A stretch of 64,000 bases of DNA from the NCBI RefSeq assembly GCF_001659605.2, contig NC_035170.2:3162001-3226000 (forward strand). Reading direction: 5' to 3'. The stretch's first letter is position 1; each line of letters opens with the position of its first letter. The position numbers and the translations under genes are program-made. The DNA is from Manihot esculenta (taxonomy: Eukaryota; Streptophyta; Magnoliopsida; Malpighiales; Euphorbiaceae). The notes below the pieces were generated by a model. The model was not told the DNA's origin and ran no database searches. It saw only the letters and a program-made list of their open reading frames with translations. Shown piece by piece: positions 22,483 through 60,330 of this stretch.

Positions 22483-24932
22483 ATGGCCGGAAAAGGAGAG
22501 GGACCAGCAATCGGAATTGATCTGGGCACCACATACTCGTGCGTTGGTGTTTGGCAACATGATAGGGTGGAGATCATTGCTAATGATCAAGGCAACAGAA
22601 CGACGCCGTCTTATGTTGCCTTCACCGATACCGAGCGTTTGATTGGCGATGCTGCCAAGAACCAGGTCGCCATGAACCCCATCAACACCGTTTTTGGTGA
22701 GTATTTTTTTTACTGAGAGCAAAAATCTAAAATCGGCCGTCTATTTTTATGTTTTTTTTTACTTAGTATTCAATTGGTCGTCGTCGTTTAAATTCAAGGA
22801 TTTGATTTCGAATGTCTGAGACGGTGAGATCTCATAGATGAGATCCAAAATTTAAGAGGATAGGACAGATGTTTTCGATCTGCAATCCTACGGTGAAAAA
22901 GATTATGTTACTCTATGTTTTAATTGATGAAGCAATGTAGATTAGGGTTGTGATCTTATGCGTTTAACTGACTGTTTTGTATACCGTATTCAACGCAATG
23001 ATTAAATTATGTGAATTGTCAATAAAAAAAAAGATATTGCCTCTGTTTTCATACTAATATGTCTAAATCTGCAATGGTTTCTTAGCTAATCGAGAACAAT
23101 ATTTTGGACTATTGTTGTTTCTTGCCTGTTTCATTGCCCATTGCATTTTTTTTGTATGTCGGTTTGTGTTTAGTAATTGGAAGTCATGTATTGCAGATGC
23201 AAAGCGGTTGATTGGTAGGAGATTTAGTGATGCTTCGGTACAGAGTGACATCAAGCTCTGGCCGTTCAAGGTTATTCCAGGACCTGGTGATAAGCCTATG
23301 ATTGTTGTCAGCTATAAGGGTGAGGAAAAGCAGTTTGCTGCTGAGGAAATCTCTTCCATGGTCCTCATTAAAATGCGTGAGATTGCTGAGGCTTACCTTG
23401 GCACCACCGTCAAGAATGCCGTCGTCACCGTCCCTGCCTACTTCAATGATTCTCAAAGGCAGGCTACAAAGGATGCTGGTGTCATTGCGGGTCTCAATGT
23501 CATGCGTATCATCAATGAGCCTACTGCTGCTGCCATTGCTTATGGCCTTGACAAAAAGGCTACCAGCGTAGGTGAGAAGAATGTGTTGATTTTTGACTTG
23601 GGTGGTGGCACTTTTGATGTGTCATTGCTAACTATTGAGGAGGGTATCTTCGAGGTCAAGGCCACCGCTGGAGACACCCATCTTGGAGGTGAGGACTTTG
23701 ACAACAGAATGGTGAACCACTTTGTTCAGGAATTTAAGAGGAAGAACAAGAAAGACATCAGTGGAAATCCTAGAGCTCTTAGGAGATTGAGGACAGCTTG
23801 TGAGAGGGCAAAGAGAACCCTTTCATCCACTGCTCAGACAACTATTGAGATTGATTCTTTGTATGAGGGCATTGATTTCTACTCAACCATCACTCGTGCC
23901 AGGTTTGAGGAGCTTAATATGGATCTTTTCAGGAAGTGTATGGAGCCCGTGGAGAAGTGTTTGAGAGATGCAAAGATGGATAAGAGCACTGTACATGATG
24001 TTGTCCTTGTTGGTGGCTCCACTAGGATTCCAAAGGTGCAGCAGCTGTTGCAAGATTTCTTCAATGGGAAGGAACTCTGCAAGAGCATCAACCCTGATGA
24101 AGCTGTTGCTTATGGTGCTGCCGTCCAGGCTGCCATCTTGAGTGGTGAAGGCAATGAAAAGGTGCAGGATCTGCTGCTCTTGGATGTCACTCCTCTGTCC
24201 CTTGGTCTGGAAACTGCAGGAGGTGTGATGACTGTTCTGATCCCAAGGAACACTACAATTCCAACCAAGAAGGAACAAGTTTTCTCTACATATGCAGACA
24301 ATCAACCTGGTGTGTTGATCCAGGTTTATGAGGGCGAGAGAACAAGAACTAGAGACAACAACTTGCTGGGAAAATTTGAGCTCTCAGGCATTCCTCCTGC
24401 ACCAAGGGGTGTTCCACAAATCACAGTTTGCTTCGATATTGATGCCAATGGTATCTTAAACGTGTCTGCTGAGGACAAGACCACTGGCCAAAAGAACAAG
24501 ATCACAATCACTAACGATAAAGGAAGATTGTCCAAGGAAGAAATTGAGAAAATGGTACAGGAAGCTGAAAAGTACAAATCTGAAGATGAGGAGCATAAGA
24601 AGAAGGTTGAGGCAAAGAATGCCTTGGAGAATTATGCCTACAACATGAGGAACACTGTTAAGGATGAAAAGATCAGTTCAAAGTTGGATGCTTCTGACAA
24701 GAAGAAGATTGAGGATGCTATTGAACAGGCCATTCAGTGGCTAGACAGCAATCAGCTTGCAGAGGCTGATGAATTTGAGGACAAGATGAAGGAGCTTGAG
24801 AGCATCTGCAATCCCATAATTGCCAAGATGTATCAAGGTGCTGGTGCTGACATGGGTGGCGGAATGGACGATGATGCTCCTCCAGCACGCGGCAGCAGTG
24901 GTGCAGGTCCCAAAATTGAGGAAGTTGACTAA
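22483..24932 (+). CDS. HSC70: Cytosolic heat shock cognate 70 kDa protein (HSP70)
   Basis: ATP-dependent chaperone of the cytosol and nucleus that folds client proteins with J-domain and nucleotide-exchange partners. Two exons, 22483-22696 and 23197-24932, with a 500-bp GT-AG intron inside codon 72 (Asp), the position usual for plant cytosolic HSP70 genes. The product is 649 residues, normal for the family. The three family signatures are present: IDLGTTYS (about residues 12-19), [14 protein letters not shown] (about 200-213) and [13 protein letters not shown] (about 340-352). The substrate-binding domain and helical lid follow. The tail ends in GPKIEEVD; the terminal EEVD is the docking motif for TPR co-chaperones such as HOP and marks the cytosolic class. 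There is no transit peptide. The frame is intact. Heat-shock elements lie upstream. Confidence 0.97.
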
Positions 24933-35482: not shown

Positions 35483-36205
35483 TCAAAGGCATAGACCAGT
35501 ACACTGGAGATCATCAATAACAAAGTCAACCTGATCCATCGGTGGAAAATTCAGATCGAAAGGTAAGGGCTTCCGGCAGCTCAAGGACGAGGATGATGCA
35601 ATATCACCATCGTCAATAACCGAAGACGACGAATCACAATCGCTTTGACAATCCTCCGGCACCATCGGTTGAGTCCTCTGATGGGTCTTCTTCGGGGCAG
35701 TCGCCGACAACAAAATCCGCGATCTTTTTGTTGCTGTTGTTGACACCGGTGGCCTGGGACCGCTGAAAGATTCCACCGTACTGCTCTGACTGCTAGAAGT
35801 GGGTCTCTGGGGATTTACGTGATGCTCATCAAATCCATCTGCTGTATATAACCTGTGATCCATGAAAGAATCGGGGGGGTTTTGGTAGGTGAAAGGGGAT
35901 AAATGGGAGGATGAGATGACAAAATTGGTTTTGGCCTTGGGTCCACGGAGGGAAAGGGCGGCAGCGTCATAAGCACGGGCAGCATCCTCCGCGGAGTCGA
36001 AGGTACCGAGCCAGACTCTAGTCTTTTTCAAAGGATCTCTGATCTCGGCGGCAAATCTGCCCCATGTTCTTTTCCGGACTCCTCTATATCTGGGTTCTTT
36101 CCCCTTTATTATATTTTGAGGTGCAGATCCGTTTGGTTCCACTACTCCTTCAGTTGCTGCGGCGGTGGTGGCCGCGGCGGCGGCTGCTGCTCTTCTTCTC
36201 CTCAT
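35483..36205 (-). CDS. ERF3: ERF3-type AP2/ERF transcriptional repressor
   Basis: Group VIII ethylene-response factor, a nuclear protein expected to bind GCC-box promoters and repress. Single exon, 240 residues. It starts MRRRR plus a poly-Ala tract (residues 6-17, encoded by a GCN repeat). The AP2/ERF domain is at about 39-97 with [36 protein letters not shown] and GPKAKTNF. A middle FMDHRLYT motif and [12 protein letters not shown] follow, then [18 protein letters not shown]. Near the C terminus is the EAR repressor motif DLNFPP (about 217-222), and the tail is [10 protein letters not shown]. This motif order is that of the ERF3/ERF7 group. Two AP2 positions are less usual: Thr in RKRTWGR (usually Pro) and Leu in RDPLKK (usually Trp). 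The frame is intact, and absence of introns is normal for the group. Confidence 0.95.
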
Positions 36206-36416
36206 ACGGGATTTTGAAGAACAATATGAAAGAATAGAACGAAATAAAAGGGCACAGGGTGGATTGTGAGGAAAACGGAAAGAAAACCCACAATCAACAC
36301 CAAATCAAGAAATCAGGATCAAGAATTCATATTGTTGAATGAAGCTTCGTCGAATGGATAACGGAGAAGAGAAGGAAGAGGCGAAAATGGTATAGAAATC
36401 ATAAATGGATGAGAGG

Positions 36417-43198: not shown

Positions 43199-43795
43199 TG
43201 TAATACCCGGCTAGATTCCGGCATCGGAATCCCTACCTTCCGGCGGAACCTCCGTTGGAATCTGGAATTTCTGAAGATGCCAGAGGCTCTAAAGAGGTAA
43301 AATGTGTTTCTAAAAGGTTTTTACTGATTTCATGGTTTTAAATGAAAAAGAATTGAGTTTTAAAAAGAAAAGACCAAGGAGGCATTTGCCAGGTTCGGCC
43401 GCCGAAAGTGAAGTTCGGCCGCCGAACATGGAAAGGCTTCGGGAGCGCCTTTGGCCTCCGAAAGTCTTATTTGAACGAGCCAAGGTTCGGCCGCCGAAAG
43501 TCAAGTTCGGCTGCCGAACATGCATGAGTTTAGGTGGCACATTAGGCTGCCGAAGGTCTTCGACCAGGCCACCTATAAAGGGCCCTCAGATCGGAAATGG
43601 GCGAGTTTTCTCCCCATTCTAGAGCTCAGGTGAGTTTTTGTCCTCCCTTGGCCGTTTTCATGTTTTTCTTCATCTCCTTCATGTTTTCATGAGTTCCATG
43701 GTTATTTTGAAGAGTTTTCAAGCTTAGATCAAGTTTTGGGAGCTTGGAGCTTTTGGAGCTTGGATTCTCCACACCTCCGAGTTAGACATCACGCA
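43199..43795 (+). repeat. Element A 5' LTR, first part
   Basis: Matches the start of the 3' LTR at 57757-58354 with roughly twenty differences. Contains TTCGGC-N-GCCGAA dyads at 43394, 43414, 43486 and 43506. Interrupted after ACGCA (43791-43795) by Element B. Confidence 0.9.
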
Positions 43796-45972
43796 TGTAA
43801 CGACCCCAAAATGGACCGTCACCGGCGCTAGGATTCAGGTCGGCTTAAGGCCGCCAGAACCCGTAGCAAGCCTGCTATACTCTCTGAGTACCTGTAAACC
43901 TCATACATGATCATACATTTTCTGTGAAACATAAACTCTTTTCTGAACCAAGGCTTAACCTGTGCATGCACTATCTCTGTACTCTGTACTCATGTACTCT
44001 GTACTCTGTATCCCTGACTAGAGCTTGCTCTAGATGGGTTAACTCATACCTGTTAAGCCTAGTTTTCACATACAAGAAAACATACATACATATACAGATC
44101 ATGTACAAAACATACATCACTAGGTCAAGCAACAACTATTACATCTCTTTAATATTACATGTCCACTCTAAGCTATTACAGATCTCTTTACTTTTCTTGT
44201 ACTCTGCTGGACTGTCCCTGTACACTGTACACTGAACCTGCAAAACTGGGGTTAAGGGAGTGGGATGAGCTCTATAGCCCAGTGAGTCGAACAGTAAAAC
44301 ATCTCAGTAAAATATGATCTCATGGAATGCACCATATCACAGACAAGCCACATCAAGAGTAAACCTGTCACCACATAGTCCCAGTAACTCTGTGCCAGGG
44401 CGTAGAATCGAGCACCTGGTCTTCCTGTCATATATGTATATGTGTATATAACACCTGTGTACTTACCATTGCCAGGGCGTAGTCAAAGGCTCCTGGACTT
44501 TACTATATACCTGCCAGGGCGTAGTCAAAGGCTCCTGGACTTCTCTATACCTGCCAGGGCGTAGTCAAAGGCTCCTGGACTTCCTGTCTGAGACTATTGG
44601 ATCATTCAGCATTCACTCACATCACCAATTAACGATGCAATGCAACATATTCGTGAATACTAATGCAAGCAACCTATGGCATAAACATGATGCATGAGAT
44701 ATGCTAAAAGCAGTTTGTGGTTCAATTAAAAGTCATCAGTTTAGTTCCACTCACCTCTGGCTATATTGACTGACTAATTCTGCAGGCTCTGAACCTCTGG
44801 AGCAGTACTCACTGCTGCTCTCTCTGGTTCCTCTGGTCTGTACCTATACAGATGGACTCAAATGAGGGACCAAACAAACGTAGAAATAACTCTCCTAAAC
44901 TGCCCCAAGAATCCCCTTAAACTCACTCAACTATCCCTGCAAAGCATGCAAAAGAAAGCTGGACAGGACACTTTCGGCGGCAGGTTCGGCGGCCGAATGT
45001 CCTTTCCAGAGACGAAACTCAAGTACCTTCGGCGGCACCTTCGGCGGCCGAATCCCCCAAACAGAGCCGAACATGCAAAAACACTCGGGGGCAAGCTGTG
45101 GCAATTAAGCCACCATGCAAGAGGTTCGGCGGCCGAATGAACCTTCGGCTGCCGAACCTGAGTTCCTCCAGAACTCAGCTTCAACGGCAAACCATCTTCT
45201 CCTTCCCTTCAACCACTCAAACCAGATATACTCCAACTCCTCAACACACATATACTCACGTATATGATCACAGGGGTCCAAAACTATCTAATAACCCCAA
45301 ACACCAAATCAAACATAACGCAGAAACATGTATACATGCATAACTCATCAAAACCACTCCTTCTCACTTAAACATGCAGCTCTCTCCCTTAACTTCCATA
45401 AAACCTTCAGAAAACACATAAACAGGTTCAAGAGCGTTACTTACCTCCTGTAACAAGAAGATGAACACTCTGAACAAGGGAAACGGATTAACTCTCCTCA
45501 AACTCCGCAAACCCTCACACTCGCACAAACGTAGCTTTTTGCTTCAACACATTCACAACCTCAACATATTCTGCATGAGCTGCTTACCCTCAGCAAATAA
45601 ACCAAGGGAGACGTGGCCAACTTCTGGACATGGTCCGGTGATAACACCTGGCCACAATGCTGACTAAGGGATACATACCTACTGACCAAGCAACTCAGCG
45701 TCGGCTGCCAAAGCGCATGCAAATCCATGCAACATTCGGGGGCCGAACTTACCTTCGGAAGCCGAACACTTTCGGCGGCCGAACTTACCTTCGGCGGCCG
45801 AACTTGGCTCAACTACCTTAGGTCCTTTCAACTCAAAACTCACTTCTATTACTCTAACACAAATCACACTACTTTAGTAAACCATAAATCCTACCTGGTT
45901 TATAGAATTTCGACACCCCGGATTCCACCAACTAACAGGAATTTCGGTGCCGGACTTTAGCCGGGTATTACA
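43796..45972 (-). repeat. Element B 3' LTR
   Basis: 2177 bp, TGTAAC...ATTACA on the plus strand. Contains four copies of a GCCAGGGCGTAG repeat (about 44393-44583) and two clusters of TTCGGC-N-GCCGAA dyads (44973-45156 and 45735-45802). Confidence 0.97.
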
Positions 45973-46009
45973 TTCTCCCCTCCTTAAGAACATTCGTCCT
46001 CGGATGTTC
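45973..46009 (-). promoter_or_regulatory. Element B polypurine tract and adjacent hairpin
   Basis: The purine tract is 45973-45985 (minus AAGGAGGGGAGAA), the primer for second-strand synthesis. Next to it GAACATTCG (45988-45996), a four-base loop and CGGATGTTC (46001-46009) form a 9-bp stem with one mismatch or wobble. Confidence 0.75.
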
Positions 46010-46050
46010 CTAAAATAAACAACAATGACAACAAAAGGAGGAAACAAACC

Positions 46051-49000
46051 TCAAAAGAGATATGGATACTGCTGGAGCATAGACTCTCGCGTCTCCCAGG
46101 TGCACTCTTCTAGATTATGGTGGTTCCATAGAACTTTCACCATCGGAATCTCCTTGTTCCTTAGCTGTCTGATCTGCGTGTCCAGAATCCGCACTGGCTG
46201 CTCTATATAGGTGAGATCCGTATGAATCTCCACCTCAGGCTCACTCAGAACCTGATTCGGATCTGACACAAACTGTCGTAGCATAGAAACATGAAATACC
46301 GGGTGAATTCTCTCCAGAGAAGCAGGTAAATCCAGCTTATACGACACATTTTCGATCCTCTGCAACACTTCAAAGGGTCCAATGTACCGTGGAGCCAATT
46401 TACCTTTCTTGCCAAAACGAACCACTCCTTTCATTGGAGACACTTTCAGCAATACCCAATTACCCTCTTGAAATTCTAACTGTTTTCTGCGAACGTCTGC
46501 ATAACTTTTCTGCCTACTCTGAGCTGTTCTGATTTTCTCTCTGATCATGGGCACCATTCTACTGGTAATGTCTACTAACTCTGGCCCTGCAAGAGCCTTC
46601 TCTCCTACCTCTTCCCAGCAAACAGGGGATCTGCACTTCCTCCCATACAAAGCTTCATAAGGAGCCATCCCGATGCTCGCATGATGGCTGTTATTGTAGG
46701 CAAACTCCACCAAAGGTAGATGCTGCCTCCAAGAACCGCCAAAGTCTAACACACATAGTCAAAGCATATCTTCTATGGTCTGGATGGTCCTTTCTGACTG
46801 TCCATCAGTCTGTGGGTGGAAAGCAGTACTAAAATCTAATCTCGTGCCCATCGCACTTTGCAGACTCCGCCAAAAGCGGGAGGTAAACTGAGGTCCTCTG
46901 TCTGAAACTATAGACACTGGAACTCCATGTAATCTCACTATCTCATCCAGATAGACCTGTGCCAACTTATCCACAGAATAGTTACTCCGTACTGGAAGAA
47001 AATGAGCAGATTTCGTGAGTCTGTCCACAATCACCCATATCGAGTCTATCCTGTTGGACGCTACTGGTAAACCCACTACAAAATCCATGGCTATGTTCTC
47101 CCATTTCCACTCTGGAATCGGTAATGGGTTAAGCATTCCGGCTGGTTTCTGATGCTCTAATTTCACCCTCTGACAAACCTCACAGGCTGTCACGAACTGC
47201 GCCACTTCTTTCTTCATAGCTGGCCACCAATAGACCCTTTTCAGATCCTGATACATCTTGGTGGTTCCTGGGTGAACACTATACCTCGCATTATGAGCTT
47301 CCCTCATAATGTCTTCCTTCACACTGCCCCTATCTGGTACACAAAGTCGACTCCCATAGCGAAGGATCCCTTTGCTGTCAAATCTGAATTCTACACCATT
47401 GCCTGACTGAACAGTCCTGGCAATTTTCATCAACTCAGGGTCCTCATGCTGTCTCTGAGCTATCTGCTCCAGAAACACAGGTGTCACTCTCATCTGTGCT
47501 ATTAACGCACCTGTACCAGACAACTCTAGCTGTAAGCCCTCATCAAAGAGCTTATAAAGCTCCATCACAACTGGTCTCCGCTCTGCTGCTATATGGGATA
47601 AACTGCCTAGTGACTTCCGGCTTAGGGCGTCTGCGACAACATTCGCCTTACCCGGATGATACTGGATTTTACAATCATAATCACTGAGCAATTCGACCCA
47701 CCTTCTCTGCCGCAAATTCAGCTCTCTCTGACTTAAGATGTACTGTAAACTCTTGTGATCGGTGAAGATCTCGCATTTAACCCCGTAGAGGTAATGCCGC
47801 CACATCTTAAGTGCAAAGATAACTGCTGCCATCTCTAGGTCATGGGTAGGGTAATTCAACTCGTGCTTCTTCAACTGTCTAGAAGCATAAGCTATTACTT
47901 TATCACTCTGCATCAATACACAACCCAATCCCACTCGAGATGCATCACAGAACACTGTGAACTCGTCATTACTGACAGGCAGAGCTAACACTGGTGCTGT
48001 TGTCAATCTCCTCTTGAGCTCCTCAAAGCTCTCTTCACACTGGTCTGACCAGATAAACGTCTGGTTCTTCTGCGTCAATTTGGTCATAGGAGCTGCTATC
48101 TTTGAGAAGTTCTGAACGAACCTCCTGTAGTAACCTGCCAGTCCCAGAAAGCTTTTAATCTCAGTCACTGTCGTGGGTCTGGGCCAGTTAGCTACAGCCT
48201 CGATCTTCTTGGGGTCTACCTCAATACCCTCTGCTGATACCACATGTCCCAAGAAGGCAATGCTCCGTAACCAAAACTCACACTTCGAGAACTTGGCATA
48301 TAAACCATGTTCTCTCAGTGTCTGCAGAATGATCCTCAGATGCTGGGCATGCTCCTCTGCATCTCTGGAATACACTAAGATATCATCGATAAATACAATG
48401 ACAAAGTGATCCAGAAACTCACTGAATACTCTATTCATGAGATCCATAAATGCTGCAGGGGCGTTAGTCAACCCGAACGGCATCACTAAGAACTCATAAT
48501 GCCCATATCTGGTCCAGAAAGCTGTTTTAGGCACATCTGCCTCTTTGACTCTCAACTGATGATACCCAGATCTCAGATCTATTTTCGAGAAACAACCTGC
48601 TCCAGCTAGCTAGTCAAATAGATCATCAATCCGAGGTAAGGGATACCTATTCTTGATAGTGACCTTGTTCAACTGTCTGTAGTCGATACAAAGTCTAAGG
48701 GATCCATCCTTCTTTCTGACAAAGAGCACTGGAGCACCCCAAGGTGAGGTACTAGGGCGGATGAAACCCTTATCTACCAAGTCCTGCAACTGTTCTTTCA
48801 ACTCTGTTAACTCAGCTGGCGCCATCCTGTAGGGAGGAATAGAGATAGGTCTGGTACCTGGCAGTAATTCAATTTCAAACCCTATCTCCCTATCAGGTGG
48901 TAGTCCTGGCAAATCGTCTGGGAACACATTGAGAAACTCTCGAACTACTGGTACTGTGGCTGGTTCCCTCACCTGACTGTCTAGCTCTCTCATATGAGCT

Positions 49001-49476
49001 AGAAACCCCTGACAACCCCTCCTAAGCAAACGACGAGCCTGAAGGGCTGAAATCAGACCTCTGGGTGTACCTCTCCTGTCTCCTCTGAAGACACACTCTG
49101 ACCCATCCTGGTCTCTGAGACTCACTAGTTTCTCTCGACAGTCCAACGTAGCACTATATGTAGATAACCAATCCATCCCTAGAATGACATCAAAATCCGT
49201 CAAATCTAGAACCACAAGGTCAGCTGGAAGGTATCTACCCTCAATAAACACTGGACTGAAACGACAGACTGACACTGACACTGCCACTGATGGGTCACAT
49301 CTAGGTCCACTGACCCAGAGAGGATACTCTAACTCAGAACTGATCAAACCCAATCGCTCTATGGCTCTCGAAGCAATAAAGGAATGAGAAGCACCGGGGT
49401 CCATCAAAGCATACACATCTGAACACCCAATGATGAGCTTACCTGACACCACTGTGTTCGACGTGTTAGCCTCCTC
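46051..49476 (-). pseudogene. Element B pol region: protease, RT, RNase H, integrase, chromodomain
   Basis: Continues the gag frame after a stop. The minus strand reads protease with DPGASHSFI (a variant of the D-S/T-G motif) at about 49400, RT with FIDDILVYS holding the Asp-Asp pair at about 48380, RNase H with CDASRVGLG at about 47950, integrase with its H-C zinc segment (HPGTTKMY ... CEVCQR) at about 47270-47160 and the D-D-E core ([17 protein letters not shown]), and a chromodomain-like end (VRILDTQIRQLRNKEIPMVK ... TWETRE). Stops interrupt the frame at 48610-48612 (TAG, within RT) and 46759-46761 (TGA, within integrase) without a frameshift. All catalytic residues I could check are otherwise present. 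Confidence 0.93.
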
Positions 49477-50943
49477 CTATGTCACTGTGAAAATCCGTGC
49501 TGGGGCTACCGGATTTCCACCTCGGGAACCTGCTGCTGAAGTAGAGGCTACCCCTCTCCCTCTACCTCTGCCACTAGTCTGAGGCATGACTGGAGCTGCT
49601 GGCCGTACAACTGGCTGTACCACACTGCCTGAACTCATCTGCTGGAATGGTGCAAAAGTCATCTGCGGACAATCCCGAGCAATATGCCCTTCCTGTCCAC
49701 AGCGAAAACAAGCTGTAGATCCCAACCGACAAACTCCTCCATGTGGTTTTCCGCATCGTCTACAGACTGGAGCTGTGCCAGAGCTTGCGCCACTACCTAT
49801 TCCCAGACCTGACTTGACTTTACTCCAGAACCCTTTCCTTGTTCCTTTCGCTCTATCCCATCTTTTACTGCTTGGTGTGGGGGCTTTAGAACCCGAAGCC
49901 TGTGCCTTTGACTGTTTCTGAATATTGGCACTAGCTTCCATTTTCCTGGCTGCGTCTACTATGGTATGGAAACTCTCCTTTTCTGCTGGAAGAATCAAGG
50001 AAGCATACCTAGGATGCAGTCTCATAGTATATCTCCTTGCTTTCTTCTGATCAGTATCATAGGCTTGACCCACATACTGGAGCAGATCCAGGAACTTATC
50101 TGTGAATTCATCAACACTCATCTCATCTGTCTGTCTTAACTGTTCAAATTCAATTACTTTCATCTCCCTCGAACTGTCAGGAAAAGCCCACCCTGCAAAC
50201 TCATTGGCGAACTCTCCCCATGACATGCTGTCCATTCTAGGCTCCACATAATGCTTAAACCATTCTCTGGCTTTCTTGCATTTTAATGTGAAACCTGCCA
50301 TCTCAATGGCTCTCCTATCATCTGCTCCCAATTCACTAGTTATCATCCTAACTGCTCTGAGGTAATCAAATGGATCATCTCCCGTGTTGTATTTAGGAGC
50401 ATCCAATTTCAAGTATTCCGTCATTTGGACTTTACCTCCAGATAAGCTAGGTTCATGTCTGTCAACAACAGGGGCTACTGGTTCTGGTGGCAGTACTGGT
50501 TCATTTGGCTCTAGGTGTGCTGCACTTGGATGGGTAGGGGAAGAGGGATACATAGGATATGGTGGATAATAAGGATAAGGCATATAAGGAGGATATGGCA
50601 CAAAACTCGAGTACTCCGACATACCTCCCATCGGATACTCTGGATAGCCAAAACCTGAGGTCTGAGCACCTCCCTGCGACTCTCCCATACCTTCCTCAAA
50701 ACTGCCTATACCCATGCTGTCATCTCTAGACTGATCAATCTCCATAGCTTCCCTCCTTTCCTCTGATCCTCCCCTAGCTATTCCTCTTCTGCTCTCGTCG
50801 ACAGACCTTCTAGGGTCTATTGACGTACCTTCCCTGCTAGATCTCTGAGACCTTGCCCTTGGCAAAGCAGGAGGACGAGCAGCTGGTCTCTCATTCTCTG
50901 GTGGGACTCCAGTCAATCGAGCTGATCGACGAGTTCCTCGCAT
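49477..50943 (-). CDS. Element B gag (capsid and zinc knuckle)
   Basis: 488 residues starting MRGTRRSARLTG; this start is chosen because the related gag of Element A begins with the matching MRGARRS. An N-terminal Arg/Pro-rich and then Tyr/Pro-rich region leads into the retrotransposon gag core (about residues 200-330, AREWFKHYVEPRM, WGEFANEFAGWAFP, LRQTDEMSVDEF). A CCHC zinc knuckle follows (CFRCGQEGHIARDC), with an additional Cys-rich CRRCGKPHGGVC just before it. The frame ends at a TAG at 49477-49479. Pol continues in the same frame beyond it, so that stop lies at the gag-pol junction and may be a mutation or a programmed readthrough site. Confidence 0.9.
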   Translation of the reverse strand: MRGTRRSARLTGVPPENERPAARPPALPRARSQRSSREGTSIDPRRSVDESRRGIARGGSEERREAMEIDQSRDDSMGIGSFEEGMGESQGGAQTSGFGYPEYPMGGMSEYSSFVPYPPYMPYPYYPPYPMYPSSPTHPSAAHLEPNEPVLPPEPVAPVVDRHEPSLSGGKVQMTEYLKLDAPKYNTGDDPFDYLRAVRMITSELGADDRRAIEMAGFTLKCKKAREWFKHYVEPRMDSMSWGEFANEFAGWAFPDSSREMKVIEFEQLRQTDEMSVDEFTDKFLDLLQYVGQAYDTDQKKARRYTMRLHPRYASLILPAEKESFHTIVDAARKMEASANIQKQSKAQASGSKAPTPSSKRWDRAKGTRKGFWSKVKSGLGIGSGASSGTAPVCRRCGKPHGGVCRLGSTACFRCGQEGHIARDCPQMTFAPFQQMSSGSVVQPVVRPAAPVMPQTSGRGRGRGVASTSAAGSRGGNPVAPARIFTVT

Positions 50944-51149
50944 CTTTACTCTGGAAACACAACATATAACATAGCACTTTAGCACATAAACATCACATAG
51001 CACTCATACACATGCACCACTCATGGCATATCATAACAGATAGGACTCAAGACCCTATCCTAGTGGATATGATTTCCTATTGTGCTTGACCACTTCTAAC
51101 CTGTCTGAGCCCAACACTGACTCTATAGGTCCGATCATGTGAACCTAGG

Positions 51150-51161
51150 GCTCTGATACCA
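51150..51161 (-). promoter_or_regulatory. Element B primer-binding site
   Basis: Minus-strand TGGTATCAGAGC, complementary to the 3' end of initiator tRNA-Met, three bases from the LTR end. Confidence 0.92.
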
Positions 51162-51164
51162 ATC

Positions 51165-53341
51165 TGTAACGACCCCAAAATGGACCGTCACCGGCGCTAG
51201 GATTCAGGTCGGCTTAAGGCCGCCAGAACCCGTAGCAAGCCTGCTATACTCTCTGAGTACCTGTAAACCTCATACATGATCATACATTTTCTGTGAAACA
51301 TAAACTCTTTTCTGAACCAAGGCTTAACCTGTGCATGCACTATCTCTGTACTCTGTACTCATGTACTCTGTACTCTGTATCCCTGACTAGAGCTTGCTCT
51401 AGATGGGTTAACTCATACCTGTTAAGCCTAGTTTTCACATACAAGAAAACATACATACATATACAGATCATGTACAAAACATACATCACTAGGTCAAGCA
51501 ACAACTATTACATCTCTTTAATATTACATGTCCACTCTAAGCTATTACAGATCTCTTTACTTTTCTTGTACTCTGCTGGACTGTCCCTGTACACTGTACA
51601 CTGAACCTGCAAAACTGGGGTTAAGGGAGTGGGATGAGCTCTATAGCCCAGTGAGTCGAACAGTAAAACATCTCAGTAAAATATGATCTCATGGAATGCA
51701 CCATATCACAGACAAGCCACATCAAGAGTAAACCTGTCACCACATAGTCCCAGTAACTCTGTGCCAGGGCGTAGAATCGAGCACCTGGTCTTCCTGTCAT
51801 ATATGTATATGTGTATATAACACCTGTGTACTTACCATTGCCAGGGCGTAGTCAAAGGCTCCTGGACTTTACTATATACCTGCCAGGGCGTAGTCAAAGG
51901 CTCCTGGACTTCTCTATACCTGCCAGGGCGTAGTCAAAGGCTCCTGGACTTCCTGTCTGAGACTATTGGATCATTCAGCATTCACTCACATCACCAATTA
52001 ACGATGCAATGCAACATATTCGTGAATACTAATGCAAGCAACCTATGGCATAAACATGATGCATGAGATATGCTAAAAGCAGTTTGTGGTTCAATTAAAA
52101 GTCATCAGTTTAGTTCCACTCACCTCTGGCTATATTGACTGACTAATTCTGCAGGCTCTGAACCTCTGGAGCAGTACTCACTGCTGCTCTCTCTGGTTCC
52201 TCTGGTCTGTACCTATACAGATGGACTCAAATGAGGGACCAAACAAACGTAGAAATAACTCTCCTAAACTGCCCCAAGAATCCCCTTAAACTCACTCAAC
52301 TATCCCTGCAAAGCATGCAAAAGAAAGCTGGACAGGACACTTTCGGCGGCAGGTTCGGCGGCCGAATGTCCTTTCCAGAGACGAAACTCAAGTACCTTCG
52401 GCGGCACCTTCGGCGGCCGAATCCCCCAAACAGAGCCGAACATGCAAAAACACTCGGGGGCAAGCTGTGGCAATTAAGCCACCATGCAAGAGGTTCGGCG
52501 GCCGAATGAACCTTCGGCTGCCGAACCTGAGTTCCTCCAGAACTCAGCTTCAACGGCAAACCATCTTCTCCTTCCCTTCAACCACTCAAACCAGATATAC
52601 TCCAACTCCTCAACACACATATACTCACGTATATGATCACAGGGGTCCAAAACTATCTAATAACCCCAAACACCAAATCAAACATAACGCAGAAACATGT
52701 ATACATGCATAACTCATCAAAACCACTCCTTCTCACTTAAACATGCAGCTCTCTCCCTTAACTTCCATAAAACCTTCAGAAAACACATAAACAGGTTCAA
52801 GAGCGTTACTTACCTCCTGTAACAAGAAGATGAACACTCTGAATAAGGGAAACGGATTAACTCTCCTCAAACTCCGCAAACCCTCACACTCGCACAAACG
52901 TAGCTTTTTGCTTCAACACATTCACAACCTCAACATATTCTGCATGAGCTGCTTACCCTCAGCAAATAAACCAAGGGAGACGTGGCCAACTTCTGGACAT
53001 GGTCCGGTGATAACACCTGGCCACAATGCTGACTAAGGGATACATACCTACTGACCAAGCAACTCAGCGTCGGCTGCCAAAGCGCATGCAAATCCATGCA
53101 ACATTCGGGGGCCGAACTTACCTTCGGAAGCCGAACACTTTCGGCGGCCGAACTTACCTTCGGCGGCCGAACTTGGCTCAACTACCTTAGGTCCTTTCAA
53201 CTCAAAACTCACTTCTATTACTCTAACACAAATCACACTACTTTAGTAAACCATAAATCCTACCTGGTTTATAGAATTCCGACACCCCGGATTCCACCAA
53301 CTAACAGGAATTCCGGTGCCGGACTTTAGCCGGGTATTACA
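51165..53341 (-). repeat. Element B 5' LTR
   Basis: 2177 bp, near-identical to 43796-45972. The differences seen are C/T at 45464 versus 52833 and two T/C changes near the right end (ATTTCGAC versus ATTCCGAC; AATTTCGG versus AATTCCGG). Confidence 0.97.
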
Positions 53342-53346
53342 ACGCA

Positions 53347-55250
53347 ACCCTCGATCTTCAAGAGGTAAGTGTGGATCTATGCTTTCTTTTACGTTTCATG
53401 AAGTTTTAAGTAAGTTTTAAGAGGTTTTAATGGTTAAGTATGGGTAGATATGCATGTTAGGCTTTTTGTGGCTTTTTATGCCCAATGTATGTTATGTGAG
53501 GTTTGTGTTGAGGAGTTTATGTTAGTTTATGCTCCTTTATGCATGTGGGAGAGAGTATGCATGATTGGGAGAGAGTATGTGAGGATTTGGGTTGTTTTGA
53601 TGGTTTTGGCCTATGTGGGTCATAAGCTATCTATGTATATTTTGATGTTGTTTCCGGAGTTTAATCAAGTTGTTAAGCTCCTTTGTGCATGGTTAAAGGT
53701 TTATGCATATTTTGGTAAAGTTGGGTGCTTGTTTTGGGGGTGTTTGGAAGGTTTGGGAGGCTTGAATGCATGAGAAGCTGAGTTCTGCCCTTCTGGGAAG
53801 AACTCAGGTTTGGCCGCCGAAAGGGCTTTCGGCCGCCGAACCTGCCTTTGGATGCATGGTTTGGCCGCCTAACCTTGCCCCCGAAAGTTGAGTTTTGGCT
53901 TGAAAGCAGACTTTCGGCCGCCGAAGGAAGGTTCGGCCGCCGAAAGTGCCTGACTTTCGTCTCTGGAGAAGGACTTTCGACCGCCGAAGGTGCCGCCGAA
54001 AGTGCCTTGTCCAGCCTTTTCATGGTTGTTTTCTATGCATGTTTAAGTGATGTTTTAAGGAGTTTTTGGGTAGTTGTTTATGAGTTGTTTAGAGTGTGTT
54101 GGCACCTCATTCGAGTCCACCTGTGTAGGATCGGACCCGAGGGACCGAGGAGGCCATCAGTATTAGCAGTTGCAGAGTCAGTCCAGCGTCTGCCAGAGGT
54201 GAGTAGAACTAAACTTAATCTTTTATTGTACGGAATTCAAATGCCTAAAGCATGTTCACGCATCATGTTTATATGTAATAGGTTGATTGCACTAGTTACA
54301 CGAATATGACGCATTGCATTATTTATTGTTGATGTGGATGGACCAAGGCGACCCCAATAGCCCATGTTATGTATGAAAGACCTGGGTAAGTCCCTTCGTG
54401 GGCCAGGCACTATGTTATGTATGAAAGACCTGGGTAAGTCCCTTCATGGGCCAGGCACTATGCAGAGGGAGTTTTGGTGGTCATGTCCGTCTGTTATGTG
54501 GAATGTTTGTGCTGTGACGCATTTCATAAAAGCATGTAATTAATGAATCGTTTTCTTTATTTCTACTCATTGGGCTTTTTAGCTCACCCCTCTCCCCTAA
54601 CCCCAGTGTTGCAGGTTTGAGGTTGATCGGGAAGTCTCAAGAGTAAAGGTTTTGCTTATGTAATAGTATTAGCTTAGTACTTTTAGTGTGGACATGTATT
54701 ATAAATTGATATAATGATTTGTAAGAGAATGTAATGTAAAGTTAAGTGGAGTTATGTTTATGGTTTAGTACTGTGCTTGGCCCTGAGACTTGGTTAGTCC
54801 CTGTTTAATACATGATGAATGTTATGCTAGATGTTGAGTTGTGTTTGAACTAATCTTGTGGCATGTGTTGTTTACCACGCTATGTTAATTGATGAGGACC
54901 TTAGTGGAGGTCTTATGTGTGTGGTTTGATGCATGCACAGGTTATGTTCTAGTTCCTTGGATGTAATCCCAGCTTGATGTATGTTATGTTGACCCAGCTA
55001 GAGTTTTGATGAGGGCTCTAGTAGGAGATCCTTTTATGTTTTCAGTTATGTCGCATACAGGTCAGGCTCGGTTTGTACATCAGATGTTTGAGTTTTTATG
55101 TTAAAGTTTCGATCATGTATGGGATTTGACCAGGTGATAGGAGGCATGTTTGGCTTGCTACGGGTCCCGGCGGCCTTAAGCCGATCTGGATCCTAGCGCC
55201 GGTGGCGGTTCGGGCCGTTACGGTAGGGTATCGATTTTCAGGTCATTACA
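53347..55250 (+). repeat. Element A 5' LTR, second part
   Basis: Resumes after the duplicated ACGCA and runs to ATTACA at 55250, matching 58355-60330. Has dyad clusters at 53809-53944 and two copies of a repeat beginning TGTTATGTATGAAAGACCTG (about 54364-54463), against three in the 3' LTR. Confidence 0.9.
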
Positions 55251-55253
55251 GAG

Positions 55254-55265
55254 TGGTATCAGAGC
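55254..55265 (+). promoter_or_regulatory. Element A primer-binding site
   Basis: TGGTATCAGAGC, three bases after the LTR end, complementary to initiator tRNA-Met. Confidence 0.92.
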
Positions 55266-55553
55266 TTTGGGCCTCGAGAGTACGGTGTGTTGCACATCGG
55301 AAAGAGGTTGGTTTAGAGGTCATAGAAGGGCAAGCACAGTAGGAAGAATCATGTCCACTAGGATAGGATGTAGGGTCCTGTCTTGTATGATGATGATGTG
55401 AGATGCCATGATTTTATGCATGGGCATTAATGTTATGTATGATATGTTATGTATGATATGCTATGTATGTTGCAGGTTCATGTGTTTTCATATGAACCGT
55501 ATGATGCTAATGATTGATTGTATGCTTGTGTGTTGTTCTTCAGAGGAGCCAGA

Positions 55554-56396
55554 ATGCGAGGTGCTCGTCGATCTGTGGAATCGACTAGAGTTCCATCTGA
55601 GAGGGAAGGTATGGACACCTTTCCCCCTGCTCTGCCAAGAGCGCAGTCGTGGGGAGTCGGCAGATGGGGAACATCAAGGGACCCTGGAAGGTCTTTTGAT
55701 GTAAGCAGAGAAGGGATGGCTCCAAGAAGGATGTCAGTTAGTGCGAGAGAAGTGGAGATGGATGTTCAGAGAAGATATGTCAGTTTGGGAGTCAGAGTAC
55801 CAGAAGAAGGTATGGGAGATTCTCAGGAGAATGCTCAGACTCAGGATTCCAGAATCTCAGGTTCAGGAGGGATTGATCCCTCCACTCTGAGTACAGCCTC
55901 CACGAAAAGCAAGAAGTGGGGCAGAACCCTGAGGGGGAAGAAGAAGAAGTTGTGGAGTCGGTTGAAGTCTAGTCTGGGATTAGGTGGTGGTTCGAGCTCT
56001 GGCTCAGGCAGTTCAAGATGCTTGAGGTACGGAAGGCCGCACAAGGGAGTCTGCCGTTATGGGACTAATCTATGTTACAGGTGCGGACAGGAGGGGCACA
56101 TAGCACGTGAGTGTCCCACTGCGCCCAGGTTGGCTCCGTCCCAACAAGCAGCTTCAGGTAGAGCAGCTCAGCCAGTAGCTCCACCCGTGTTTCAGGTTAG
56201 TGGTCAAGGCAGAGGAAGAGGGTCAGCCCCTCATTCCTCAGGTTTCCGTGAAGAAGGTCCATCAGCTCCAGCTCGGATCTTCACCCAAGCTCAGCAGGAG
56301 GCAGACACATCGAACATGGTGGTGTCAGGTACGCTCACTTTTGAATGTTCTGATGTGTATGTTTTTGTGAACCCTAGTGTTTTTCTCTTTCTTTAG
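55554..56396 (+). CDS. Element A shortened gag-like protein with zinc knuckle
   Basis: 280 residues starting MRGARRSVESTRV, aligned with the Element B gag start. The Ser/Arg-rich N terminus is followed almost directly by the basic linker (KKWGRTLRGKKKK) and the CCHC knuckle (CYRCGQEGHIAREC). The whole capsid-like core found in Element B is absent, yet the frame stays open through the knuckle and into the first residues of the protease region (NMVVSGTLTFECSDVYVFVNP). The internal loss is therefore in frame. A short RNA-binding protein could be made, but expression is unknown. Confidence 0.7.
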   Translation: MRGARRSVESTRVPSEREGMDTFPPALPRAQSWGVGRWGTSRDPGRSFDVSREGMAPRRMSVSAREVEMDVQRRYVSLGVRVPEEGMGDSQENAQTQDSRISGSGGIDPSTLSTASTKSKKWGRTLRGKKKKLWSRLKSSLGLGGGSSSGSGSSRCLRYGRPHKGVCRYGTNLCYRCGQEGHIARECPTAPRLAPSQQAASGRAAQPVAPPVFQVSGQGRGRGSAPHSSGFREEGPSAPARIFTQAQQEADTSNMVVSGTLTFECSDVYVFVNPSVFLFL

Positions 56397-57690
56397 TTGC
56401 TCTAGGAGCCGTCGAGAGGTTGAGTTGATAGCTTCGGGGCTAGAGTGTTCTCTTTGGGTCAGTGGACTCACGTGTGATCCATCTGTGGCAGAGTCAGTCT
56501 GCCGGTTCAGTTCTGTGACAGTGAGGGTAGATGCCTTCCACCCGACTTTGAGGTCCTAGACTTGACTGTCTAGACGTCAATCGAGGGATGGATTGGTTTC
56601 TGCTCGTGGTGCTATCTTGGTTTATAGAGACAAGGTAGTCAAGTTCAGAGGACAGGATGGGTCAGAGGTGGTCTCCTGAGGGAACATAGTAGGGATGCCT
56701 AGAGGTTTGATGTCAGCCTATCAGGTTCGTAGGGTACGTAGGAGGGGTTGTCAGAGGGTTCTAGCTCTTGTTTGAGAGTTTTGCAGTCAGGTCAGGGAAC
56801 CAGTCTTAGTGGTAATAGTTAGAGAGTTCTTAGTTGTTTTCCCAGGCGAGTTGTCAGGTTTACCACCTGTCAGGGAGTTAAAGTTTGGAATGGAGGTGGT
56901 ACTTGGTACCAGGACCATTTCTTTCCTTCCCTATAGGATGGCGCCTGCGTAGAGAGAGGTAGTAGTCAGAGTAGAGGCGAGACTTAGTAGACAGGGGTTT
57001 TATCCGACCTAGTACCTCACCCTGGGTTGTTCCAGTGTGGTGGTGGGAAAAGAAGGATGAATCCTCGAGACTTTGTAACAACTGTAAGCAGTTGACCAAG
57101 GTCACTACCAAGAGCAAGTATTCCCATGCAGGATGGATGATCTATTGGGACAGCTAGTAGGAGCTGGTTATTTTCCAAGATAGGTCTGAAATCCGGGTAC
57201 TACCTGTGAGAGTTAGAGTTAGTTTTGGGTCAGATGTGAGAAGAAGCCAATCAGTGAAGATGGAGAGAAAGAGTAAGGATCAGAGAAGCGCAGCGGAAGC
57301 TAGTGGAGTTTAGGAGTAGGTTGGGTACTGCTAAGGTGTTTCTTTTGGTAAGGGTGATTTCCTATGGAGAGGATCCATTCGGATTTCTATGTTCCTGTAT
57401 TATGGAAGCTCGTGTCAGATCCAAGTGAGGTTCTTAAAGAACCAGAGGTGGAGATCTCAAGGGATCTCACCTATGTTGAGCAGTTAGTGCGGATCATGGA
57501 CACACAAGTCAAGAAGTTGAGGAACAAGGAAATCCCGATGGTGAAAGTTTTTGAAAATCACCACTGGATGGTAGTGAGTGTTTGGGAGACCCGGGAGTTT
57601 ATACTCCAGCAGTGCCTGTGTCTCTCTTTTAGGAGAGAGGTTTTAAGTTTTGCATGCTTGGTTGCTTGCTTGTTTATGTATGATTGATGC
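56397..57690 (+). pseudogene. Element A pol remnant
   Basis: Decayed pieces of protease (ECSLWVSGLTCDPSVAESV at about 56435) and of the RT start (about 56820-57170), in changing frames with stops. It then jumps to the integrase C-terminal and chromodomain-like end at 57364-57687 (VEISRDLTYVEQLVRIMDTQ, LRNKEIPMVKV). Relative to Element B, about 2 kb covering most of RT, RNase H and the integrase core is missing. Confidence 0.85.
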
Positions 57691-57718
57691 TTTGATTTGA
57701 GATGCTTGTTTGTTTGAG

Positions 57719-57756
57719 GAACATTCGGGGACGAATGTTCTTAAAGGGGGGAAGAA
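57719..57756 (+). promoter_or_regulatory. Element A hairpin and polypurine tract
   Basis: GAACATTCG (57719-57727), loop GGGA, then CGAATGTTC (57732-57740) form a perfect 9-bp stem. It is followed at once by the purine tract that ends at the 3' LTR. Confidence 0.8.
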
Positions 57757-60330
57757 TGTAATACCCGGCTAGATTTCGGCATCGGAATCCCTACCTTTCG
57801 ACGGAATCTCCGTTGGAATCTGGAATTTCTGAAGATGCCAGAGGCTTCTAGAGGGGTAAAATGTGTTTTCTAAAAGGTTTTTACTGATTTCATGGTTTTA
57901 AATGAAAAAGAATTGAGTTTTAAAAAGAAAAGACCAAGGAGGCATTTGCCAGGTTCGGCCGCCGAAAGTGAAGTTCGGCGGCCAAACATGGAAAGGCTTC
58001 GGAAGTGCCTTTGGCCTCCGAAAGTCTTGTTTGAACGAGCCAAGGTTCGGCCGCCGAAAGTCAAGTTCCGCCGCCGAACATGCATGAGTTTAGGGGGCAC
58101 GTTAGGCTGCCGAAGGTCTTCGACCAGGCCACCTATAAAGGGCCCTCAGATCGGAAATGGGCGAGTTTTCTCCCCATTCTCGAGCTCAGGTGAGTTTTTG
58201 TCCTCCCTTGGTCGTTTTCATGTTTTTCTTCATCTCCTTCATGTTTTCATGAGTTCCATGGTTATTTTGAAGAGTTTTCAAGCTTAGATCAAGTTTTGGG
58301 AGCTTGGAGCTTTTGGAACTTGGATTCTCCACACCTCCGAGTTAGAGATCACGCAACCCTCGATCTTCAAGAGGAAGTGTGGATCTATGCTTTCTTTTAC
58401 GTTTCATGAAGTTTTAAGTAAGTTTTAAGAGGTTTTAATGGTTAAGTATGGGTAGATATGCATGTTAGGCTTTACGTGGCTTTTTATGCCCAATGTATGT
58501 TATGTGAGGTTTGTGTTGAGGAGTTTATGTTAGTTTATGCTCCTTTATGCATGTAGGAGAGAGTATGCATGATTGGGAGAGAGTATGTGAGGATTTGGGT
58601 TGTTTGGATGGTTTTGGCCTATGTGGGTCATGAGCTATCTATGTATGTTTTGATATTGTTTCTGGAGTCTAATCAAGTTGTTAAGCTTCTTTGTGCATGG
58701 TTAAAGGTTTATGCATGTTTTGGTAAAGTTGGGTGCTTGTTTTGGGGGTGTTTGGAAGGTTTGGGAGGCTTGAATGCATGAGAAGCTGAGTTCTGCCCTT
58801 CTGGGAAGAACTCAGGTTCGGCCGCCAAAAGGGCTTTCGGCCGCCGAACCTGCCTTTGGATGCATGGTTTGGCCGCCTAACCTTGCCCCCGAAAGTTGAA
58901 TTTTGGCTTGAAAGCAGACTTTCGGCCGCCGAAAGTACCTGACTTTCGTCTCTGGAGAAGGACTTTCGACCGCCGAAGGTGCCGCCGAAAGTACCCGAGT
59001 TTCGTCTCTGGAGAGAGGGTTCGGCCGCCGAAAGTGCCCTGTCCAGCCTTTTCATGGTTGTTTTCTATGCATGTTTAAGTGATGTTTTAAGGGGTTTTTG
59101 GGTAGTTGTTTATGAGTTGTTTAGAGTGTGTTGGCACCTCATTCGAGTCCACCTGTGTAGGATCGGACCCGAGGGACCGAGGAGGCCATCAGTATTAGCA
59201 GTTGCAGAGTCAGTCCAGCGTCTGCCAGAGGTGAGTAGAACTAAACTTAATCTTTTATTGCACGAAATTCAAATGCCTAAAGCATGTTCACGCATCATGT
59301 TTATATGTAATAGGTTGATTGCACTAGTTACACGAATATGACGCATTGCATTATTTATTGTTGATGTGGATGGACCAAGGCGACCCCAATAGCCCATGTT
59401 ATGTATGAAAGACCTGGGTAAGTCCCTTCGTGGGCCAGGCACTATGTTATGTATGAAAGACCTAGGTAAGTCCCTTCGTGGGCCAGGCACTATGTTATGT
59501 ATGAAAGACCTGGGTAAGTCCCTTCATAGGCCAGGCACTATGCAGAGGGAGTTTTGGTGGTCATGTCCGTCTGTTATGTGGAATGTTTGTGCTGTGACGC
59601 ATTTCATAAAAGCATGTAATTAATGAATCGTTTTCTTTATTTCTACTCATTGGGCTTTTTAGCTCACCCCTCTCCCCTAACCCCAGTGTTGCAGGTTTGA
59701 GGTTGATCGGGAAGTCTCAAGAGTAAAGGTTTTGCTTATGTAATAGTATTAGCTTAGTACTTTTAGTGTGGACATGTATTATAAATTGATATAATGATTT
59801 GTAAGAGAATGTAATGTAAAGTTAAGTGGAGTTATGTTTATGGTTTAGTACTGTGCTTGGCCCTGAGACTTGGTTAGTCCCTGTTTAATACATGATGAAT
59901 GTTATGCTAGATGTTGAGTTGTGTTTGAACTAATCTTGTGGCATGTGTTGTTTACCACGCTATGTTAATTGATGAGGACCTTAGTGGAGGTCTTATGTGT
60001 GTGGTTTGATGCATGCACAGGTTATGTTCTAGTTCCTTGGATGTAATCCCAGCTTGATGTATGTTATGTTGACCCAGCTAGAGTTTTGATGAGGGCTCTA
60101 GTAGGGGATCCTTTTATGTTTTCAGTTATGTCGCATACAGGTCAGGCTCGGTTTGTACATCAGATGTTTGAGTTTTTATGTTAAAGTTTCGATCATGTAT
60201 GGGATTTGACCAGGTGATAGGAGGTATGTTTGGCTTGCTACAGGTCCCGGCGGCCTTAAGCCGATCTGGATCCTAGCGCCGGTGGCGGTTCGGGCCGTTA
60301 TGGTAGGGTATCGGTTTTTGGGTCGTTAAA
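57757..60330 (+). repeat. Element A 3' LTR
   Basis: 2574 bp, TGTAATACCC to GGTCGTTAAA. Has dyads at 57954, 58046, 58836, 58921 and 59020 plus degenerate ones, and three copies of the repeat beginning TGTTATGTATGAAAGACCTG (about 59397-59543). Confidence 0.9.

Follow-up and report, generated by a model that had tools for sequence, protein, structure and literature searches.

Clustered 13-bp dyads as a candidate host-protein binding array in the long terminal repeats of related cassava Ty3/gypsy retrotransposons

Host proteins that activate plant long terminal repeat (LTR) retrotransposons are, to our knowledge, known for few families. The closest described sequence feature is the RM box of the Sireviruses, a Ty1/copia genus. 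In Bousios et al. (2010), RM boxes are related to stress-factor sites by database comparison, with no common binder, and are termed Sirevirus-specific because classic Ty1/copia elements lack them (PMC2829016). A second system is that of the VANDAL DNA transposons, which encode a binder and carry arrays of VANC targets with the non-palindromic motif YAGTATTAY (PMC5735166). Here we analyze a window of 64,000 nucleotides of the cassava (Manihot esculenta) genome (contig NC_035170.2, positions 3,162,001 to 3,226,000, forward strand), in which two nested retrotransposons, elements A and B, carry arrays of the 13-bp dyad TTCGGC-N-GCCGAA in their LTRs. We favor, with moderate confidence, the reading that the dyads form a cis-regulatory array of host-protein binding sites, acting as an LTR enhancer in related LTRs of chromovirus-type Ty3/gypsy elements; binding, the enhancer or transcriptional effect, methylation and the host origin of the binder are all inferred from sequence. 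No published account of this LTR palindrome array in cassava was found in the open-access literature.

The cassava dyads and the RM boxes both consist of a short, CpG-dense palindrome with a CGG-CCG core that occurs in many copies per LTR, clusters upstream of a cTATAAA-type box and has extra copies in the internal region (PMC2829016). The RM box of Osr9, TTTTCGGACWTRTCCGAAAA, has TTCGG and CCGAA in common with the cassava dyad (PMC2829016). RM carriers have at least eight copies per element, and A (7 + 5 exact dyads) and B (6 + 6) reach that number; RM carriers are Ty1/copia Sireviruses, however, whereas B and a second dyad-bearing lineage belong to Ty3/gypsy. The cassava dyad further differs in its length of 13 bp with a one-base gap, in a second cluster far downstream of the TATA box, and in the location of its internal copies, which lie in gag and in the protease-reverse transcriptase (PR-RT) linker, whereas internal RM copies precede env. 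By analogy, the cassava elements appear to work like RM carriers, yet are not members of that group.

The window contains 24 exact dyads (TTCGGCNGCCGAA), every one inside the LTRs of A or B; 100 dinucleotide shuffles of the window contained none. One-change sites add to the exact copies in each LTR. All positions that the sequence-only reading of this DNA had given as exact proved to be so, and the two sites it had called one-off variants (45735 and 45754) are indeed that. In element sense, the center base is C in 21 dyads, A in two and T in one. Because A and B lie in opposite orientation, the apparent center C in A and center G in B are a single motif on opposite strands, and two independent families with different centers were rejected on the grounds of this orientation and of common descent. 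Longer dyad arms were also rejected, since pairing at flank positions 1-8 in 18 sites was no more frequent than after flanks from different sites had been mixed. The dyads form an upstream cluster 1, which in A includes a roughly 92-bp tandem repeat (79% over 78 bp), and a deeper cluster 2. The left LTR of A starts with TGTAATACCCGGC. The features are as follows.

43199-43795, plus strand: A left LTR, first part, broken by B (96.5% match to 57757-58355)
43394-43554, plus strand: A left LTR cluster 1, dyads at 43394, 43414, 43486, 43506; imperfect sites at 43450, 43542
43573-43579, plus strand: A left CTATAAA box, LTR position 375, 31 bp past the point where the final cluster 1 site begins
43796-53341, minus strand: B, whole element, chromovirus-type Ty3/gypsy by its LTR pair, ACGCA flanks and domains
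43796-45972, minus strand: B 3' LTR in the sense orientation, by LTR comparison
44985-45156, minus strand: B 3' LTR cluster 2, dyads at 44985, 45040, 45125, 45144
45700-45802, minus strand: B 3' LTR cluster 1, dyads at 45771, 45790; imperfect sites at 45700, 45735, 45754
46051-51003, minus strand: B frame for gag, protease, RT, RNase H and integrase, interrupted by three in-frame stops, by frames and domains
51165-53341, minus strand: B 5' LTR in the sense orientation, by LTR comparison
52354-52525, minus strand: B 5' LTR cluster 2, dyads at 52354, 52409, 52494, 52513
53069-53171, minus strand: B 5' LTR cluster 1, dyads at 53140, 53159; imperfect sites at 53069, 53104, 53123
53347-55248, plus strand: A left LTR, second part (93% match to 58351-60328)
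53809-53988, plus strand: A left LTR cluster 2, dyads at 53828, 53913, 53932; imperfect sites at 53809, 53860, 53976
57757-60328, plus strand: A right LTR, by LTR comparison
57954-58114, plus strand: A right LTR cluster 1, dyads at 57954, 58046; imperfect sites at 57974, 58010, 58066, 58102
58133-58139, plus strand: A right CTATAAA box, LTR position 377
58817-59032, plus strand: A right LTR cluster 2, dyads at 58836, 58921, 59020; imperfect sites at 58817, 58868, 58965

The layout of cluster 1 was compared across 16 LTRs whose 5' end is known: three from the window, eight from a fixed genome sample that were picked without regard to dyads, and five (L020, L048 and L051-L053; L-numbers denote genome stretches) that were chosen for their dyads. 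The first dyad lies 167-200 bp from the LTR start in all 16 and is exact at that place in each. With up to two changes permitted, a second site follows 19-20 bp on in 13 LTRs, and a third lies 36 bp beyond it in 11 of those 13; the triplet is doubled in several LTRs. CTATAAA follows cluster 1 in nine of the 16, and CTATAAG or CTATTTA in two others. The count of distances was restricted to the 15 TATA-type boxes that have a dyad in the preceding 80 bp. In 14 of them the nearest site starts 31 bp (10 cases) or 30 bp (four cases) upstream of the box; in the other, the final site is short of one base and the nearest counted site is 66 bp off. Cluster 1 is thus an ordered promoter block. Cluster 2 is found about 800-1280 bp into the LTR, and probably falls inside the transcribed leader. 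We give the regular positions of the dyads the most weight because they need no alignment.

In the favored reading, cluster 1 would act as a promoter-proximal enhancer with three dyads in a set order, the second about 20 bp after the first and the third 36 bp after the second, followed 30-31 bp on, where present, by a CTATAAA-type box, and cluster 2 would provide a second array several hundred bp deeper in the LTR. A host DNA-binding protein would occupy each dyad, either as a dimer or as two monomers on the inverted TTCGGC and GCCGAA halves, and joint binding may occur on neighboring dyads 19-21 bp apart. Selection would operate on lineages that are still transposing, whereas inserted copies would decay freely, most quickly at CpG, and array length would shift through gain or loss of whole units. 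AP2/ERF proteins bind the GCC box and DRE/CRT sites, and the dyad half GCCGAA is one base from GCCGAC; unlike the dyad, however, the sites known for these proteins do not take the form of a 13-bp inverted repeat with a single base between the halves. Because C-centered dyads contain the GCC-box core GCCGCC, we take an AP2/ERF protein as a candidate binder, which is a guess from this resemblance.

The cassava assembly (640,357,471 bases, 86 contigs) contains 333,204 exact dyads, compared with four matches to a reversed-pattern control. This corresponds to one dyad per 1.9 kb, 4.3 Mb in total and 0.7% of the genome. A sample of 20 fixed, non-random 10-kb stretches from contigs C1-C10 holds 65 exact dyads in seven of the stretches, with about 104 expected from the genome mean. 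The sequence-only reading had asked whether the motif is confined to LTRs. Of the 65, 58 are located in LTRs related to those of A and B (57 inside matches and one at 1 bp from a match). The remaining seven (two in L030, five in L046) belong to the second lineage, presumably Athila/Tat-like, which has dyads in its LTRs and also within genes. When dyads were masked in the queries, 53 of the 65 lay within an LTR match or at most 500 bp from one, and 12 lay farther; five of these 12, in L043, are inside matches once unmasked. A search of IMG/VR contigs returned scattered exact dyad matches, one 22-base match to B and no relative of the B pol.

The two half-sites are separated by 1 bp in all 65 sampled dyads, and gaps of 0 or 2-10 bp do not occur among them. 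Pairs of exact dyads with a spacer of 4-8 bases number 85,220 genome-wide (control 0); among the 100 pairs listed, the distances are 19 bp (40), 20 bp (33) and 21 bp (27), with spacers of varying letters. Since pairs are homologous within clusters, the total describes a conserved layout at a few LTR places rather than independent events. For the first 100 dyads listed on contig C1, neighbor distances of up to 120 bp (n = 69) include none of 13-18 bp, 31 of 19-21 bp and one of 22-31 bp; in the sample, 11 of 41 neighbor distances are 18-21 bp. The near two-turn spacing proposed earlier is therefore recovered as a sharp 19-21 bp class. The accompanying proposal that neighboring sites share one face of the helix applies to these pairs alone, as the other recurring distances (36, 43, 54-55, 72 and 84-85 bp) do not all fall on one face.

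Element A spans positions 43199-60328, with LTRs of about 2.5 kb each and a Kimura two-parameter distance of 0.019 between them. Element B was inserted into the left LTR of A in the opposite orientation; the insertion is bounded by a duplicated ACGCA, and the right LTR of A is uninterrupted at the equivalent place. The two LTRs of B, 2,177 bp each, differ at three positions. Pfam domains of B comprise gag, protease, reverse transcriptase (RT), RNase H, integrase and SH3_Tf2-1, with RT-RNase H ahead of integrase, and a chromodomain match reaches 23.5 bits, under the cut-off of 25.1. By these domains B is a chromovirus-type Ty3/gypsy element, which we assign, as an assumption, to the Tekay/Del lineage. 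Alignment of the A LTRs with those of B, spanning both clusters, gives identities of 70% (598 bp), 80% (83 bp) and 86% (the first 36 bp), and on this basis the LTRs are homologous, with arrays held through common descent. As A and B share their arrays by descent, comparison of the two alone is weak evidence for conservation.

The dense, one-orientation arrays of a short motif with tandem gain and loss resemble VANC targets (PMC5735166), a likeness in favor of an element that encodes its own binder, with the arrays as anti-silencing targets. In a search limited to frames of at least 150 aa in B, the frames are four contiguous parts of a single gag-pol frame; no other long frame, and no gene of the VANDAL type, was seen there. 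The motif is moreover common to two lineages with distant RTs (39% identity). We therefore regard an element-encoded binder as highly improbable, and of the earlier suggestion that a host- or element-encoded dimeric protein binds the sites, we retain, as the favored reading, a binder of host origin that may be dimeric or act as two monomers.

In an alignment of the 16 LTRs (mean identity 0.69), the column score is 0.898 in dyads, 0.499 in spacers within the clusters, 0.600 in the 60 columns upstream and 0.868 in the first 30 LTR bases. The eight fixed-sample LTRs give 0.903, 0.454, 0.561 and 0.846, respectively; these figures omit L030 minus 8261 and L042 minus 5253, loose 5'-end matches that appear unrelated by eye. 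The notion that the dyad core is kept while the LTRs diverge agrees with these values (0.90 against 0.45-0.50), but the excess is erased when the alignment is made with dyads masked. The same contrast bears on a functionless origin, in which an ancestral 19-20 bp unit spread by slippage and unequal exchange within one successful LTR lineage as a minisatellite-like by-product. Indels of whole units support such a process: the LTR pair of A has three indels of at least 8 bp, two of them within cluster 2, with sizes of 19 bp (one unit) and 43 bp. The tandem repeat of about 92 bp in cluster 1, the shared descent of most sampled dyads, the lack of constraint following insertion and the masking controls point in the same direction. 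In a plain minisatellite, which the sequence-only reading had itself named as an alternative, unit and spacer should be equally alike, whereas in the cassava LTRs only the dyad and the spacing persist. Each of the 16 LTRs also keeps an exact, CpG-rich dyad at the first place, and the genes of another lineage contain dyads whose spacers have no match to the LTR clusters. A by-product of this kind is, in our view, quite unlikely, although masking weakens the contrast on which this judgment draws.

Several observations weigh against an enhancer array read by a host protein. If the two doubtful rows are kept in the alignment, dyads are at 0.689 compared with 0.471 for spacers. With dyads masked before alignment, the eight-LTR set gives a dyad-to-dyad identity of 0.67 against 0.65 elsewhere, though in this masked alignment the first dyad still falls in the identical column in five of seven rows and one column off in two. 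The corresponding masked comparison of A with B (0.69 against 0.62, p 0.34) reveals no significant excess. CTATAAA is absent after cluster 1 in seven of the 16 LTRs, B included, and CTATAAA, CTATAAG and CTATTTA are all absent there in BL, L029-, L044+, L030+ and L020-; relaxing the pattern reveals a TATA-type box at 325 in L030+. Among the 15 TATA cases, several come from the two LTRs of a single element or from near copies. The linker that joins the last dyad to the TATA box is itself alike, so that the fixed distance may reflect conservation of the whole block. The A- and T-centered dyads lack GCCGCC. Finally, CpG columns have changed in the LTR pair of A at 6 of 64 positions in sites and 8 of 104 outside, and non-CpG columns at 1 of 101 and 32 of 2,210, respectively; as CpG change is alike inside and outside the sites, there is no constraint on the inserted copy A.

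The observed/expected CpG ratio is about 0.7-1.3 at the clusters and 0-0.6 across most other LTR sequence, and the odds ratio for change at CpG between the LTRs of A is 6.3. The density and hypermutability of CpG fit the methylation proposed in the sequence-only reading, which would be expected on these grounds. They also suit the idea that the arrays serve chiefly in silencing, as CG-dense palindromes that draw methylation and small RNAs and do not drive transcription; the ratio at the clusters reaches about 1.0-1.3, and in four of five pieces the array RNA is more stably folded than its shuffled counterparts. Maize Sirevirus palindromes are reported to be small-RNA hot spots (PMC5311732, PMC10760457). 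Such a role leaves the fixed TATA distance and the 19-21 bp class unexplained, and a silencing target should be lost unless it is otherwise useful, so we consider this account unlikely.

The folding results further raise the possibility that selection maintains the dyads as hairpins in the element RNA, with a role in, for instance, packaging or priming. The five array pieces have folding z values of -6.8, -4.8, -4.0, -1.0 and -2.9, compared with 0.5, -0.5 and -1.2 for controls, and the probable position of cluster 2 within the transcribed leader would be compatible with this role. In 101 imperfect sites, however, altered arm pairs are compensated once and broken 161 times (40 of the broken pairs being G/T). 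The arms thus do not covary, and selection for hairpins was rejected on this count. Cluster 1 is positioned upstream of the TATA box, and perfect one-base loops cannot form as such. Hairpins, the other role suggested at the outset, are therefore very unlikely to explain the arrays.

The second lineage is represented by an element in L046 and L055 with gag, a weak protease match and RT, which places it in Ty3/gypsy; we take its gag, protease and polypurine tract to be Athila/Tat-like. The RT of L046 is 39% identical to that of L030, which in turn is 88% identical to that of B. The upstream LTR of the L046 element has sites at 184, 239, 282 and 303 bp from the start (303 with one change), the incomplete downstream LTR at 238 and 281 (281 with one change), and an LTR copy in L030 at 184, 239, 282, 303 and 357, of which 282, 303 and 357 carry one change each. 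Read backwards, the spacings of 54, 21, 43 and 55 equal those of the distal cluster 2 in L043, to which the array stretch is 69.6% identical over 207 bp. Judged by order and alignment, the array is an inverted relative of the cluster 2 array. No dyad is present at the equivalent LTR place in two relatives, L036 (5876-6029) and L029 (4480-4640); by eye, L029 has a short A/T-rich repeat where the dyads would be. In this family dyads are also found inside gag and the PR-RT linker (L046 9244-9477 and L055 1766-1801), where they are read as SAAE in gag and as RPPN and FGRRT in the linker, that is, in three reading frames; FGRRT is near the frame end, where the frame may be shifted. The spacers of these genic dyads do not match the LTR clusters.

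A broader proposal, which we put forward as possible but doubtful, is that CGG-CCG boxes upstream of TATA are a general solution of plant LTRs, found in Ty1/copia Sireviruses and two Ty3/gypsy lineages and read by one class of host protein. In cassava they would constitute a selfish, capturable module, with an inverted array in the U3 of the Athila/Tat-like family, at a place where two relatives lack it, and further dyads that arose in the genes of that family; the sites could also titrate a host factor, a question raised by their number. If the same protein class does read the Sirevirus boxes, a feature described as particular to one Ty1/copia genus would become a general rule, and the inverted array makes the exchange of enhancers between retrotransposons testable. 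As a single motif at a fixed promoter place marks very many abundant elements of a crop, the binder can be sought with one probe.

Further observations concern the state of the two elements. The gag-pol frame of B contains two TAG and one TGA stops, while its LTRs are nearly identical; its move thus probably used the proteins of another copy. The internal region of A (55249-57756) is only about 2.5 kb, and a matching target duplication is not evident at its ends (around 60328), so A may be a deleted or recombinant copy. Strings that resemble the splice donor AG/GTRAGT are located in the LTRs of A (43624-43634, 53363-53371 and 54197-54206) and have counterparts in B; one of them, CCAGAGGTGAGT, is common to A and B, and a spliced leader is possible. 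Deeper in the LTRs, there are tandem repeats of about 48 bp in A (54364-54470 and 59400-59540) and about 60 bp in B (44470-44600), one unit of which differs between the LTRs of A. The last 200 bp of the LTR (2301-2499 of the A left LTR) are CpG-rich (observed/expected about 1.16), unrelated to the dyads and among the parts best conserved across families. Elsewhere in the window, an ERF3-like AP2 protein (35483-36304) shows 85% identity to a protein of Manihot esculenta and 80% to one of Hevea. Further frames of host genes correspond to Dof (948-1904), B3 (19683-20315) and HSP70 (23067-24932).

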